Assembly: GCA_024398435.1 (NCBI GenBank)
Contig: JAKSJD010000001.1
Location: forward strand, 301,039 to 365,038
Origin: Bacteroidaceae bacterium
Lineage (GTDB): Bacteria; Bacteroidota; Bacteroidia; Bacteroidales; Bacteroidaceae
Reading direction: 5' to 3'
Length of the DNA: 64,000 nucleotides
Shown here: one piece after another, positions 28,603 through 32,990 of the stretch
Layout of the letters: each line of letters starts with the position of its first letter
Numbering within the stretch: position 1 is the first letter of the stretch
Notes under the pieces: model-generated
What the model was told of the DNA's origin: nothing
The model's input: the letters and a program-made list of their open reading frames with translations, nothing else
Database searches by the model: none
Position numbers and translations under genes: made by a program

Positions 28603-29427
28603 ATGAAACAGGCGGAATACATCGAAAGCATTGAAATCAAGGCTCTTTGGAAAGGCGGAAAGCACATCCATTGGGAGTTGACTCCAAGCGTGAACATACT
28701 GAGCGGAATCAATGGAGTAGGCAAAAGCACTATCATCAACCACTCTGCCCACACTCTCCATCAAATCGAAGGAGGGGAAATCAGAGCGGGAGAAGTGGTG
28801 GAAGGCGTCACAATCAAACTCTTCCCTGCCGATGCCGAAGTCATCAAATATGATGTGATTCGCTCGTTCGACCGACCTCTGCTCAACAGCAACCTACTCG
28901 AAAAGTTGGCCGACTCAAGAGTGAAAACCGAACTCGACTGGCAAATCTACAAACTGCAAAAGCGCTATCTCGACTATCAAGTCAATATAGGCAACCGAAT
29001 CATCGAGCTCCTCACAAGCGGAAAACCTGAAGACCAGGTAGAAGCTGCATTGGTATCCACTCCAAAGACAAAGTTCCAAAACATCATGGACGAACTCTTC
29101 AAGGACACCGAAAAGACAATCGACCGACGAAGCAACGAGATTCAGTTCTTCCAACACGGGGAAACTCTCACTCCTTACCAACTTTCTTCGGGCGAAAAGC
29201 AGATGCTCGTAATCATGTTGACCGTACTCGTACAAAACGGAGAACACTATGCCCTCCTCATGGACGAACCCGAAATAAGCCTCCACATCGAATGGCAAAA
29301 AGTATTGATAAGCCTCATCCGCGAACTCAATCCTAACGCACAAATCATCCTTTCAACCCACTCGCCTGCCCTCATCATGAATGGATGGATGGACACAGTG
29401 ACTGCCGTTGAAGACGTTACAGTTTAA
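28603..29427 (+). CDS. AAA/ABC-type ATPase paired with a DUF4435 gene
   Basis: The 274-residue protein has an ABC-ATPase layout: Walker A GINGVGKST (35-43), signature LSSGEKQ (194-200), Walker B ALLMDEPE (217-224) with catalytic Glu, and H-loop STHS (251-254). The insert between Walker A and signature is only about 150 residues and includes a helical stretch (LDWQIYKLQKRYLDYQVNIG), so it lacks a long coiled coil. It belongs to the AAA_15/AAA_21 class of OLD-like ATPases. The DUF4435 gene follows after 17 bp. This pair has the architecture of the PARIS anti-phage system (AriA ATPase plus AriB Toprim), although the ATPase here is short. Confidence 0.9.
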   Translation: MKQAEYIESIEIKALWKGGKHIHWELTPSVNILSGINGVGKSTIINHSAHTLHQIEGGEIRAGEVVEGVTIKLFPADAEVIKYDVIRSFDRPLLNSNLLEKLADSRVKTELDWQIYKLQKRYLDYQVNIGNRIIELLTSGKPEDQVEAALVSTPKTKFQNIMDELFKDTEKTIDRRSNEIQFFQHGETLTPYQLSSGEKQMLVIMLTVLVQNGEHYALLMDEPEISLHIEWQKVLISLIRELNPNAQIILSTHSPALIMNGWMDTVTAVEDVTV

Positions 29428-29444: not shown

Positions 29445-30503
29445 ATGGCTGACAAACTCTCCGGATACATAAATTCTTCATACTTTGAAGCGGCTAACCA
29501 CATGCGACCTAAGTGGAAACAACTCAAGGTCATCGTCTATGTGGAGAGCTACGATGATATTTTCTTCTGGAGAGACGTACTTGCAAAATACGAAACCGAC
29601 CAAATCGGATTCGAAATTGTCCTTCCTTCCCGAACAAACCTTTCGAGAGGAAAGAAGTCGGCCATCATGAACCACCTCGGAAGCGGATTGGGAACAAGCA
29701 TGATTGCATGCGTCGATGCCGATTTCGACTATCTGCTGCAAGGTCACACTCCTGCAAGCAAAGCCTTCCTCAGCAATGAATTTGTGGTTCACACCTACGT
29801 TTATGCCATCGAAAGCTACCAGTGTTACGCACCTACTCTTCACGAGATTTGCGTGATGGCCACACTCAACGACCATAAGGTTTTCGACTTCGAGGAATAC
29901 CTGAGAGCTTATTCAATCATCATCTACGACCTGTTCATCTGGTCGATTTGGCTCTATCGAAACGACCTTGCAAACGAGTTTCCAATGGCTGCCTTCTGCA
30001 ACACAACCACCACTCACAAGGTAAATGTGTTCAATCCCGAAGACACTCTCGAACATCTTCGCAAGAATGTAAACCGAAAGGTTGCAGCTCTTCAGCAGGA
30101 ATACCCACAAGCCAAAGGTAAACTCAATGCTCTCAAGGACGAACTATTCCATCTTGGAGTCACTCCGGAGAATACTTATCTCTACATTCAAGGCCACCAC
30201 TTGAAGGACAATATAGTGCTTGAAGTGCTCACTCCAATATGCAACAACCTACGAAGAGCAAGGGAAAAAGAGATAAAACAATGTACCGAACACGCACAAC
30301 AAATGGACAACGAACTCGCAAGCTATCAGCATAGTCAGGCTTCGGTCGAAGAAATGTTGAGGAGAAACACGCTCTACAAGTCGGCTCCTCAATTCCAACT
30401 CCTCACAAAACATCTTGAAGCCGTAATCGCAAAACTTACTGCCAACTTGCCCGAACGTACAAACCCCAAACCATCAGAAAGCCAAAAACCGAATGCAAAC
30501 TGA
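29445..30503 (+). CDS. DUF4435 Toprim-like protein
   Basis: The 352-residue protein carries the DUF4435 (Toprim-fold) core: LKVIVYVESYDDIFFWRDVL with E34 and D37/D38, and MIACVDADFDYLLQG with D91-x-D93-x-D95. These match the Glu and DxD metal-binding positions of Toprim nucleases such as OLD family and AriB. The middle part (VVHTYVYAIESYQCYAPTLH) is also typical of DUF4435. The C-terminus from about 270 is helical and charged, with a low-complexity end (PERTNPKPSESQKPNAN). With the preceding ATPase it may form a sensor-effector pair. Confidence 0.88.
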   Translation: MADKLSGYINSSYFEAANHMRPKWKQLKVIVYVESYDDIFFWRDVLAKYETDQIGFEIVLPSRTNLSRGKKSAIMNHLGSGLGTSMIACVDADFDYLLQGHTPASKAFLSNEFVVHTYVYAIESYQCYAPTLHEICVMATLNDHKVFDFEEYLRAYSIIIYDLFIWSIWLYRNDLANEFPMAAFCNTTTTHKVNVFNPEDTLEHLRKNVNRKVAALQQEYPQAKGKLNALKDELFHLGVTPENTYLYIQGHHLKDNIVLEVLTPICNNLRRAREKEIKQCTEHAQQMDNELASYQHSQASVEEMLRRNTLYKSAPQFQLLTKHLEAVIAKLTANLPERTNPKPSESQKPNAN

Positions 30504-30602: not shown

Positions 30603-30624
30603 AATGCAAACCGACGAAAAGCCA

Positions 30625-31206
30625 ATGATAGAAATCCAAGGAATACTCGTTTCACTCGACCTCTTCTCCGAGTTCTTCTGTTGCGACCTTGCCACTTGCA
30701 AGGGTTGCTGTTGTGTGGAAGGAGATGCTGGTGCCCCTCTCGATATTGACGAAATTGCCGAAATCGAGGAAGCAATGGAAGTCGTTTGGGACGAACTGAC
30801 CGAAGAAGCAAAGGAAGTAATCAACAATCAAGGGGTTGCCTATGCCGACCCTTCGGGCGAACTCGTTACAAGCATTGTAAACAATCGCGATTGCGTCTTT
30901 GCCCAACATTCCGAAGACGGCACTTGCTATTGTGTTCTCGACAAGGCTTATCGCGAGGGAAGAACTTCTTTCCAGAAACCAATTTCCTGCCATCTTTACC
31001 CTGTAAGACTTTCAAAAGTGGGCGACACAATCGGTGTTAACTACCACAAATGGTCAATCTGCAAATGCGGAATCAACCTTGGTCAGAAGCTTTCACTTCC
31101 TCTCTACCAGTTCTTGAAAGAACCTCTCATCCGTCGGTTTGGCGAAGAATGGTGGAATGAATGTGACGTTGCAGCCAAAGAACTCAAGAAAGCTGGTTAT
31201 ATTTAG
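30625..31206 (+). CDS. DUF3109 cysteine-rich protein
   Basis: I start at the ATG at 30625 (MIEIQGILVSLDLFSEFFCC); an ATG at 30604 lies inside the repeat array and would add MQTDEKP, which family members lack. The 193-residue protein shows the DUF3109 pattern: CDLATCKGCCCVEGDAGAPL, DCVFAQHSEDGTCYCVLDKA, KPISCHLYPVRL and WSICKCGINLGQKL. The cysteines resemble the YkgJ/CxxCxxxCC zinc or iron-sulfur type. Function is unknown. It follows the DUF4435 gene by 121 bp, so co-transcription is possible but not certain. Confidence 0.9.
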   Translation: MIEIQGILVSLDLFSEFFCCDLATCKGCCCVEGDAGAPLDIDEIAEIEEAMEVVWDELTEEAKEVINNQGVAYADPSGELVTSIVNNRDCVFAQHSEDGTCYCVLDKAYREGRTSFQKPISCHLYPVRLSKVGDTIGVNYHKWSICKCGINLGQKLSLPLYQFLKEPLIRRFGEEWWNECDVAAKELKKAGYI

Positions 31207-31341: not shown

Positions 31342-32709
31342 CTAGATTAACTTTTCCAACTGGTCAACATTCTGCTTGATTAACTCGTCTGGAGCTTCAT
31401 AGTTCTGAAGGTTTCCACTCAGATACTGGTCGTAAGCAGTCATATCTATAAGGCCGTGGCCTGAAAGGTTGAAGAGGATAACCTTCTCTTCGCCTGATTC
31501 GATGCACTTCTTTGCCTCGCGAATGGCTGTTGCAATTGCATGACAAGACTCTGGTGCTGGTATGATTCCTTCCGACTTTGCAAACAACAAACCGGCATCA
31601 AAGGTTTCAAGTTGCTGGATATCAGCAGCTTCCATAAGTCCATCCTTCAACAACTGGCTGACAACGGTTCCTGCTCCATGATAGCGAAGACCACCTGCAT
31701 GGATGTTGGCTGGCATGAAGTTGTGGCCAAGTGTGAACATTGGCAGAAGTGGAGTATAACCGGCTTCATCTCCAAAGTCGTACTGGAACACACCCTTTGT
31801 CAACTTAGGACAAGATGCTGGTTCGGCTGCAATGAAACGTGTTTTCTTGCCTTCGAGAATGTTGTGGCGCATGAATGGGAACGAGATTCCACCAAAGTTG
31901 CTACCACCACCAAAGCATCCAATCACTATATCTGGATATTCGCCTGCCATTGCCATTTGCTTCTCTGCCTCAAGACCGATAACTGTTTGATGCATAGTCA
32001 CATGGTTGAGCACGCTTCCAAGTGTGTACTTACAATTTGGAGTAGTGCGAGCAAGCTCTACAGCCTCACTGATTGCAGTTCCAAGACTTCCCTGGCAGTT
32101 TGGAGTTTTTGTAAGAATGTCCTTACCAGCACGAGTTGACATTGATGGAGAAGGTGTTACCTGAGCTCCAAATGTCTGCATGATGCTTCTGCGATAAGGC
32201 TTTTGCTCGTAACTTATCTTTACCTGATAGACGGCTGCTTCGAGGCCAAACACCTTTGCTGCATAAGAAAGGGCAGCCCCCCACTGGCCAGCTCCGGTTT
32301 CGGTTGTTATGTTCGTAATTCCCTCTTCCTTAGCATAATATGCCTGAGCGAGAGCTGAATTGAGCTTATGACTGCCAATCGGACTTACACTCTCATTCTT
32401 GAAATAGATGTGAGCTGGAGTGCCGAGGGCCTTCTCCAAACCATAGGCACGAACGAGAGGAGTACTTCTATAGTACTTATACATCTCGCGAACTGGTTCT
32501 GGAATTGGAATCCAAGCATCAGTCATATTCAATTCCTGACGGGCACACTCCTCGCAGAAGATTGGATAGAGATCTTCCGGAGTCACTGGTTTCTTGGTCT
32601 TTGGATCCAAAGGCAACATTGGCTTGTTGACCATATCTGCCTGGATGTTGTACCAATAACGAGGGATTTCATCCTCGCTTAGAAAGAATCTTTTCTGTTT
32701 AGTTTCCAT
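31342..32709 (-). CDS. trpB: tryptophan synthase beta chain, TrpB2-like
   Basis: The 455-residue PLP enzyme belongs to the TrpB2 type (longer than the 390-400 residues of TrpB1). It has the N-terminal extension IPRYWYNIQADMVNKPMLPL, the Schiff-base lysine in SPIGSHKLNSALAQAYYA, ETGAGQWGAALSYAAKVFGL, and the phosphate loop IGCFGGGSNFGGISFPF. TrpB2 enzymes make tryptophan from indole and serine, but often stand apart from trpA, and their role is debated. Here there is no trpA beside it. A leader with three Trp codons and a terminator precedes it, which strongly supports a role in tryptophan supply. Confidence 0.93.
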   Translation of the reverse strand: METKQKRFFLSEDEIPRYWYNIQADMVNKPMLPLDPKTKKPVTPEDLYPIFCEECARQELNMTDAWIPIPEPVREMYKYYRSTPLVRAYGLEKALGTPAHIYFKNESVSPIGSHKLNSALAQAYYAKEEGITNITTETGAGQWGAALSYAAKVFGLEAAVYQVKISYEQKPYRRSIMQTFGAQVTPSPSMSTRAGKDILTKTPNCQGSLGTAISEAVELARTTPNCKYTLGSVLNHVTMHQTVIGLEAEKQMAMAGEYPDIVIGCFGGGSNFGGISFPFMRHNILEGKKTRFIAAEPASCPKLTKGVFQYDFGDEAGYTPLLPMFTLGHNFMPANIHAGGLRYHGAGTVVSQLLKDGLMEAADIQQLETFDAGLLFAKSEGIIPAPESCHAIATAIREAKKCIESGEEKVILFNLSGHGLIDMTAYDQYLSGNLQNYEAPDELIKQNVDQLEKLI

Positions 32710-32794
32710 ATTCTATTGTTTTTATTATTCCGAACCATCAGAGACTCTTGGCGCCTTTGAGCCTCATTGGCTCTTTTCAACGCTCTTATGAAAA

Positions 32795-32820
32795 AAGCCT
32801 GTCGCAAGTACGACAGGCTT
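32795..32820 (-). terminator. intrinsic terminator inside the trpB2 leader (attenuator)
   Basis: AAGCCTGTCG and CGACAGGCTT form a perfect 10-bp stem with a 6-nt loop, and the minus strand continues with TTTT. It lies 50 nt after the leader-peptide stop and 86 nt before the trpB2 start, so it would stop transcription before the gene. A second small hairpin, GAGCC/GGCTC, lies at 32759-32773. Confidence 0.85.
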
Positions 32821-32869
32821 TCATTGTATCTCTTCCGAAGTATCTACATGCCTTGGCGACTCACGACTT

Positions 32870-32920
32870 TTATGATCTTGAGCTCTGCCACCACCAAATG
32901 CTTGTCAATACAACGTTCAT
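32870..32920 (-). CDS. Trp leader peptide of the trpB2 attenuator
   Basis: The frame ATG (32920) to TAA (32870) codes for MNVVLTSIWWWQSSRS, 16 residues with three consecutive TGG codons. It starts about 33 nt after the expected transcription start and ends 50 nt before a strong terminator. The TGG codons overlap a possible hairpin (TGGC / GCCA plus CTC / GAG). Ribosome stalling at the Trp codons when charged tRNA-Trp is low should favour read-through. I could not find a convincing antiterminator pairing by eye. Confidence 0.82.
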   Translation of the reverse strand: MNVVLTSIWWWQSSRS

Positions 32921-32958
32921 TTATTCGTATCTGTCTTGAATGATTACTAATTCGATTG

Positions 32959-32990
32959 CAAAGTTACATTCTTTTTCTCTATTTGCCAAA
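32959..32990 (-). promoter_or_regulatory. trpB2 leader promoter
   Basis: The minus strand has TTTG (32990-32987), a 20-bp spacer and TAACTTTG (32966-32959). It predicts a leader of about 245 nt, long for this genome. Confidence 0.8.

Follow-up and report, generated by a model that had tools for sequence, protein, structure and literature searches.

The window analysed here is a 64,000-nucleotide stretch of Bacteroidaceae DNA, taken from a Bacteroidales genome of 77.6% completeness (G000), whose minus strand carries trpB2, the gene of a stand-alone TrpB-like enzyme. We consider it probable that a ribosome-mediated tryptophan (Trp) attenuator of the kind named Bacteroid-trp controls this gene, and that its product converts scavenged indole, together with serine, to tryptophan. 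With much less assurance, we also lean towards a broader view, namely that Bacteroidales lacking the tryptophan pathway repeatedly kept one TrpB – TrpB2, or in some genera the product of trpB1 – behind a trp attenuator as a tryptophan-demand switch for indole scavenging. The topology of this switch would be undescribed: the strand that usually holds the stop codon takes the terminator loop as a toehold and invades the 3' arm. The evidence, which is computational throughout as regards both regulation and indole use, suggests tryptophan-demand control of indole salvage, with pathway-less relatives likely turning scavenged indole into tryptophan on demand.

The leader of trpB2 and its relatives

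Two alignments recur below. A1 holds 30 leaders, of which 9 precede trpB2, 17 the canonical trpB (trpB1) and 4 a gene that we take to be trpE. A2 holds 17 leaders of trpB1 genes alone and underlies the covariance model R2, which was kept free of trpB2 leaders to avoid circularity (covariance-model E-values being rough). The preliminary description of the window had seen a promoter, a 16-codon frame with three TGG codons and a terminator ahead of trpB2, and on inspection of the sequence every one of these parts is present, on the minus strand like the gene itself:

32987..32990, minus strand: TTTG, the −33 box of a Bacteroidetes-type promoter (from sequence; 20-nt spacer to the −7 box)
32959..32966, minus strand: TAACTTTG, the −7 box (from sequence; 20 nt from TTTG)
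32783..32935, minus strand: whole leader as matched by R2 (81.8 bits, E 1.7e-16)
32870..32920, minus strand: leader peptide frame of 16 codons, MNVVLTSIWWWQSSRS followed by a stop (from sequence)
32888..32896, minus strand: three TGG (Trp) control codons (from sequence; TGGTGG columns invariant in the 30 leaders of A1)
32875..32883, minus strand: 5' strand of the 1:2 hairpin, predicted to sequester the antiterminator strand (folding of the window leader; RNAalifold consensus)
32859..32867, minus strand: putative antiterminator 5' strand GUCGUGAGU, the conserved UCGURAG element (9-bp helix with 32809-32801; covariation and swap tests)
GUCGUGAG: antiterminator-side sequence, proposed pairing partner of ACUUGCGAC
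32801..32809, minus strand: putative antiterminator 3' strand ACUUGCGAC, i.e. the terminator loop and the start of the 3' arm (folding, covariation and swap tests)
32794..32821, minus strand: intrinsic terminator hairpin (from sequence; 95.5% of cells paired across the 30 leaders)
31342..32709, minus strand: trpB2 (ATG at 32709), a stand-alone TrpB-like pyridoxal-phosphate enzyme of 455 amino acids (NF009057, TIGR01415)

The terminator had been described as a perfect 10-bp stem with a T run, 50 nt after the frame. Stem and T run do exist, the stem having 12 bp (32821-32810/32805-32794; 11 Watson–Crick pairs and one U-G) with an ACTT loop, and starting 48 nt past the stop codon of the upstream open reading frame (uORF). 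Six T lie at 32796-32791, three of them inside the stem; a generic terminator scan reports the repeat on the plus strand only, few T following the stem on the minus strand. With a folding energy of −68.6 kcal/mol (z −3.85), the leader lies below each of 200 shuffles, and the folding check proposed earlier also brought out a 1:2 hairpin. A Trp run within a short reading frame and a leader ending in an intrinsic terminator are the parts expected of a ribosome-mediated Trp attenuator.

The promoter boxes follow what we take to be the Bacteroidetes consensus, and TTTG-N17-23-TAnnTTTG stands upstream of 47 of 66 non-redundant leaders, with a modal spacing of 19. These 66 (44 before trpB1, 22 before trpB2) are what remained of 100 after 9 before other genes and 25 near-duplicates had been dropped, and they had been selected for a Trp-Trp uORF. 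A pattern scan found no sigma-70 site, and inspection of the sequence found neither TTTG nor TAnnTTTG between the terminator and the trpB2 ATG. The gene itself, the sole copy in the assembly, scores above the curated cut-offs of both TIGR01415 (596.5 bits, cut-off 518.85) and NF009057 (703.5 bits, cut-off 366); its best three matches among solved structures are 6hul (named beta chain 1), 4qys and 6hte (named beta chain 2).

When the 64 kb were searched with R2, the leader (32935-32783) was the top match, followed by the antisense of the same terminator (E 0.0079) and then by unrelated places (E of at least 0.78). Among 90 trpB2 loci, R2 recovers nine distinct leaders at 70 bits or more (ten rows, L032 being the same as L154), the next, L105, reaching 28.8 bits. 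Rfam's own Bacteroid-trp model (RF01692), recommended earlier as a check, gave a mixed answer. It aligns with the window leader over positions 1-131 of its 131 in a permissive 701-base search, at a score (24.3 bits, E 3.1) that does not reach the gathering threshold of 49 bits; at gathering thresholds, Rfam reports only four tRNAs in the window. Of the 17 leaders behind R2, nine (L002-L010) score above the RF01692 cut-off, L011 and L012 come to 48.1 and 48.5 bits, and the remaining six to 29.8-41.5. Because a model built on trpB1 leaders alone finds it, the window leader is, by sequence comparison, homologous to the trp-operon leaders of Bacteroidales despite failing the Rfam score, and its layout – a uORF with consecutive TGG codons, then UCGURAG, then the terminator – is that of Bacteroid-trp. 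The Rfam model stops in the terminator 5' arm and so lacks the loop and 3' arm with which UCGURAG appears to pair.

Probable antiterminator pairing and the proposed switch

In E. coli trpL, ribosome stalling on Trp codons chooses between rival hairpins ahead of an intrinsic terminator. The preliminary description had suspected that the present switch pairs differently from the E. coli model, and this suspicion is borne out: the antiterminator appears to use the terminator loop and 3' arm. In the window, GUCGUGAGU and ACUUGCGAC form a 9-bp helix (32867-32859:32809-32801; p 0.037 against shuffles). Run on A1 with no prior constraint, RNAalifold gives the terminator together with a hairpin joining the segment after the Trp codons (CUYA..ACU) to UCGURAG, and the covarying pairs of this 1:2 hairpin lie at columns 59-62:78-81 and 65-67:73-75. 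The terminator has a covariation of 0.525. The antiterminator, to which A1 had not been fitted, has 84.4% of its cells paired and a covariation of 0.341; none of 500 shuffles reaches this value (shuffles give 0.250), and sliding the helix yields no more than 0.145. Both sides vary in six of its nine pairs (11 of 500 shuffles reach the same), the outermost being A-U in 8, U-A in 7, G-C in 2 and G-U in 1 of the 18 leaders that pair there. The leader thus has three mutually exclusive helices, each supported by covariation.

Tested singly (31 leaders, i.e. A1 and L105; p values uncorrected), pairing with the loop and 3' arm reached p<0.05 in 17 leaders and pairing with the 5' arm and loop in 2. 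The two latter, the more distant L105 (by way of AUUGAGCA; p 0.020) and L013 (p 0.010), look E. coli-like, and across the 66 leaders the native duplex with the 5' arm and loop has a slight edge over permutations (21 of 5000 reach so low an energy). Yet it is unlikely that the canonical E. coli pairing, in which the antiterminator takes up the terminator 5' arm (the 2:3 helix), is the rule here. When partners were exchanged between dissimilar leaders, the mean energy of the 5'-arm duplex moved only from −7.00 (native) to −6.41 kcal/mol (Wilcoxon p 0.19), whereas that of the loop and 3'-arm duplex went from −11.46 to −9.01 kcal/mol (0 of 5000 permutations as low as the native mean); in the window, moreover, the best helix with the 5' arm has only 4 bp (p 0.753). 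The antiterminator best supported by these comparisons would be UCGURAG with the terminator loop and 3' arm. The trpB2 leaders of genus g21 (L201, L204, L205) lack GUCGU in the terminator stem and retain CUCAC(GA) in or at the loop, and pairing is weak in L206 (−7.4 kcal/mol) and L203 (−4.4) and, with the segment bounds used here, also in L020 (the leader of G036, identical with L201; −6.8).

The start of the element GUCGURAG lies 21 nt beyond the last Trp codon in 44 of the 66 leaders, and 18-22 nt beyond it in the 64 that have a recognised motif. In 43 of these 64 it contains the stop codon (UCG-URA-G); the window uORF now stops 9 nt before that in-element position. A near-constant spacing of this sort, the covariation of three mutually exclusive helices and the homology to trp-operon leaders make it very improbable that we are dealing with an ordinary terminator in a long 5' untranslated region, accompanied by a fortuitous Trp-rich frame and devoid of regulation, even though the rarity of the leader (7 of 80 trpB2 loci, discussed below) favours that view.

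The attenuator might work as follows. With Trp-tRNA plentiful, the ribosome would reach the stop codon and cover or release the UCGURAG element; the 1:2 hairpin would sequester UCGURAG, and the terminator would form. With Trp-tRNA scarce, the ribosome would stall on the TGG run, so that the 1:2 hairpin loses the use of its 5' strand; GUCGURAGN, now free, would pair with the emerging terminator loop and then extend into the 3' arm, an invasion that would displace the top of the 5' arm and let RNA polymerase read through into trpB2. The polymerase would presumably still be hiding the end of the 3' arm while the choice is made, and pairing with the loop before invading the arm would resemble toehold exchange. 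The ribosome positions and the direction of regulation in this scheme are those that we infer.

In folding simulations, the stretch covered by the ribosome was removed and the exposed length of the terminator 3' arm was varied. At an exposure of 5 nt, 64 of 66 leaders favour the antiterminator once the ribosome's stretch has been taken away. If the leader is left whole at this exposure, the antiterminator prevails in 7 of 66 and the 1:2 hairpin forms in 59 of 66. The position of the mask barely matters (56-65 of 66 for +4 to +18).

Several results, in the simulations and elsewhere, count against the switch as drawn. Antiterminator-like dominance survives in a mean of 16 of 66 leaders when the element is shuffled, and in 53 of 66 when it is taken from another leader, so the dominance is not specific to the native pairs and much of the pairing is common to the class. 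In full-length RNA with the ribosome stretch removed, the terminator dominates in 63 of 66 leaders, that of the window included, and the balance tips towards it as exposure of the 3' arm grows from 9 to 10 nt; equilibrium pairing therefore fails to explain read-through. Since the terminator is the more stable at full length, the switch would have to be kinetic, decided during transcription. Below its top, the terminator is left untouched by the antiterminator, and the lower stem could persist as a pseudoknot. The two end pairs of the antiterminator helix are non-standard in 10 and 12 of the 30 leaders of A1, and the T run after the terminator stem is short in the window.

A different direction of control would follow from the TnaC type of sensing, in which the nascent peptide and free tryptophan together stall the ribosome and high tryptophan induces. 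The Trp residues of the leader peptide and the solitary position of trpB2 would fit such a scheme, but runs of two or three TGG codons stand at the same place before trpB1 operons, which would gain little from being switched on by a surplus of tryptophan, and the peptide sequence near the Trp residues varies. We regard this possibility as remote, and return to attenuation by Trp-tRNA shortage in what follows.

Pathway loss, spread of the leader and the role of TrpB2

Neither trpA, trpE nor trpB1 was found in the window genome, where the TrpB search gave a single match; TrpB2 thus appears to stand there without a trpA partner, as first described, in a genome whose completeness of only 77.6% is itself a point on the opposing side. 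The search for a second TrpB covered the window's genus: G007 and G012 resemble G000 in carrying leader-trpB2 and in yielding neither trpA nor a second TrpB-like match, and the same search finds a trpB1-like match in G005, G006, G009, G010, G011, G015 and G016, and a partial one in G008. A search for trpE covered 31 genomes, chosen mostly as leader carriers. It returned full-length matches of 393-416 bits in all seven genomes with trpA and in none of the 24 without, none of the 31 reaching the curated cut-off of 517.7; the partial matches of 41-127 bits in six of the 24 are presumably paralogues or fragments. Most of these 24 keep trpB2 (or trpB1) behind the leader. The ten with a completeness of 90-100% all have the leader ahead of a trpB gene: trpB2 in G036, G063, G084, G104, G131, G150, G163 and G121 (the last with a degenerate leader), trpB1 in G095 and G169. 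In G215 and G273, leader-trpB1 occurs without trpA or trpE, and trpB2 has no leader.

A tight bond between leader and pathway loss is contradicted by G009 and G011, which possess trpA and trpE and bear a leader on trpB1 as well as on trpB2. Likewise, G114, G138 and G191 combine trpA and trpE with a leader at trpB2 and another at the trpA/trpE locus, and G214 has trpA and leaders at both loci. As five of these genomes (G009, G011, G114, G138 and G191) keep the pathway, the trpB2 leader is not tied to its loss, nor is it merely a relic. The proposal that the leader reached trpB2 only after loss of the trp operon was accordingly rejected as a general rule, G009 and G011 keeping the operon with leaders on both genes. 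For genus g13, such a route is the simplest account of the sequences. In G269 the order is leader, trpB1, E, G, D, C, F, A, trpB2 and a ComF-like gene (trpA and trpB2 named by searches, the other operon genes and the ComF-like gene being our presumed assignments from sequence). G131, where neither trpA nor trpE was matched, resembles it in the leader (75%), trpB2 (85.8%) and the ComF-like gene (68.5%), with nothing operon-like between leader and trpB2; deletion of the operon would have joined the two.

In four genomes (L221-L224; G095, G169, G233 and G088), trpB1 lies behind the leader with the rest of the operon not adjacent. Nearby on the same strand, in three of them, is a frame that begins like what we take to be L-asparaginase, and in G088 an opposite-strand gene lies between; in G233, a presumed EamA-like transporter follows leader-trpB1.

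Across 251 genomes of the family with completeness of at least 70%, a leader model made from all 30 leaders (E of at most 0.01; weak matches included, only part of them checked individually) matches 186, while TrpB2 (E of at most 1e-100) is found in 198 and trpA in 152. The leader goes with trpA, occurring in 137 of the 152 genomes that have it and in 49 of the 99 that do not (Fisher p 1.2e-12). Conservation ahead of orthologous trpB2 genes, which the preliminary description had made a test of its proposal, turned out patchy. A Trp-Trp uORF lies within 450 nt of only 7 of 80 unselected trpB2 loci (a few of which have shorter upstream DNA), another weight in the opposite pan; the leader is kept in the nearest relatives – G012, of the same genus as the window genome and with a TrpB2 91% identical, G007, G009 and G011 – and recurs in other genera. 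A larger set, enriched for leader loci and holding some genes twice (L032/L154, L050/L214), has the leader in 29 of 115 trpB2 rows, one more being unscored. Leader-bearing trpB2 genes of this enriched set form 14 leader-only clades and call for at least 11 changes on the tree, so the leader was recruited or lost repeatedly.

Within the window's genus, the trpB2 leaders of G000, G012, G007 and G009/G011 are 61-76% identical to one another (G009 and G011, 99%) and only 43-48% identical to the trpB1 leaders of G009/G011, a low figure that points to an origin older than, or different from, the route in g13. That the trpB2 leader of G009 or G011 is a fresh copy of its own trpB1 leader is unsupported (43-45% identity within each genome). 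The trpB1 leaders of these two genomes (L171, L170) read W-R-W, with no Trp run, and lie close to leaders of genus g15 (L017, L149), a resemblance which suggests that their trp operon was acquired from another genus.

Leaders may also be doubled. In G122 (L199, 6705), a second Trp leader inside the trp operon (MFLNKNTYWWWRNSRPEKS) is nearly identical to the one at its head (MFSNKNTYWWWRNSRPEKS), by sequence a case of tandem attenuators within one operon; L137, L142 and L153 likewise have a second one, and in all four the gene that follows it is presumably trpD. In L019 (G042), a trpE-like gene is preceded by two consecutive Trp leaders, MNTNRLNNYWWWQFTYSFYREEGKLS and MNNSNLHIWWWHNSGIKP. In genus g21, the trpB2 matches G084:C2 and G104:C20 each contain one in-frame TAA.

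As to the enzyme, a 2024 screen (PMC11535334) reports that an E. coli trpA mutant growing beside wild-type cells benefited from B. thetaiotaomicron TrpB2, an effect explained as indole uptake; the protein concerned, BT_RS23500, which shares 59% identity with Thermotoga TrpB2, appears to convert indole to tryptophan. Indole-to-tryptophan conversion, or indole salvage, by TrpB paralogues is also cited for T. kodakarensis (PMC11085991). A study of 2007 (PMC1854888) called the extra function proposed for TrpB2_o 'not identified yet' and came upon no hint of a role other than tryptophan synthesis. Taken together with the leader and with trpA, trpE and trpB1 going undetected, the work on the B. thetaiotaomicron homologue supports the reading that TrpB2 makes tryptophan, and so the original argument that control by tryptophan supply bespeaks a tryptophan-making enzyme; that indole is its substrate in the window organism we likewise infer. 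The attenuator could be real and TrpB2 yet serve another reaction, tryptophan being no more than a signal. A serine deaminase role was indeed once proposed for TrpB2, but TrpB2_o proteins show poor serine deaminase activity (PMC1854888), the trpA mutant was aided (PMC11535334), and trpB1 keeps its leader in G095, G169, G233 and G088, where neither trpA nor full-length trpE was found. This alternative seems to us improbable.

How an organism profits from a stand-alone TrpB2 is less clear than the reported activity of the enzyme, and the attenuator makes a role in tryptophan supply directly testable. Leader-trpB2 in genomes where trpA and trpE were not found suggests regulated indole cross-feeding among gut Bacteroidales.

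Near trpB2, on the plus strand, lie an AAA ATPase gene (28603-29427; PADLOC AriA, E 1.2e-55; Pfam AAA_15/AAA_21) and, 17 nt past it, a gene for a DUF4435 protein (29445-30503; PADLOC AriB, E 1.9e-55). The pair looks like an anti-phage system of the type that we take to be called PARIS. A DUF3109 gene (30604-31206, plus strand; PF11307, E 7.9e-73) is convergent with trpB2, and a relative of it also lies near trpB2 in G005 (L159). Neither rpsU nor xerC was found beside any other trpB2 locus in the flanking DNA compared.

Comparison with known attenuators and enzymes

Neither the Bacteroid-trp class nor the indole-to-tryptophan activity of TrpB2 is new; what this analysis adds is the topology of the antiterminator and a trpB2 regulon in genomes lacking the pathway. 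In the literature on Bacteroidetes tryptophan attenuation and trpB2 leaders, no leader of this kind on trpB2 appears in the titles or the beginnings of abstracts among the matches listed, and the match that combines trpB2, attenuation and a leader concerns Actinobacteria. The main text of the paper that named Bacteroid-trp (PMC2864571) contains the motif name once, in a table; its supplement may describe the mechanism, this pairing included.

The present system resembles the E. coli trp attenuator in that stalling on Trp codons would decide between competing hairpins before an intrinsic terminator. It differs in that the antiterminator would pair with the terminator loop and 3' arm instead of the 5' arm, and in that the stop codon mostly lies within the antiterminator strand (43 of 64 leaders), that of the window coming 9 nt earlier in frame. 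With Bacteroid-trp (RF01692) it shares a position before trp genes in Bacteroidetes, the TGG run, UCGURAG and a hairpin across the Trp codons; unlike that class, the window leader scores below the cut-off and has as its target a stand-alone trpB2 rather than a trp operon. The class would thereby gain a complete, testable switch with an unusual antiterminator. The encoded enzyme, finally, belongs to the same family (NF009057/TIGR01415) as the stand-alone TrpB2_o proteins of T. maritima and T. kodakarensis and BT_RS23500, and is set apart from them by the Trp attenuator ahead of its gene and by a genome in which trpA, trpE and trpB1 went undetected.

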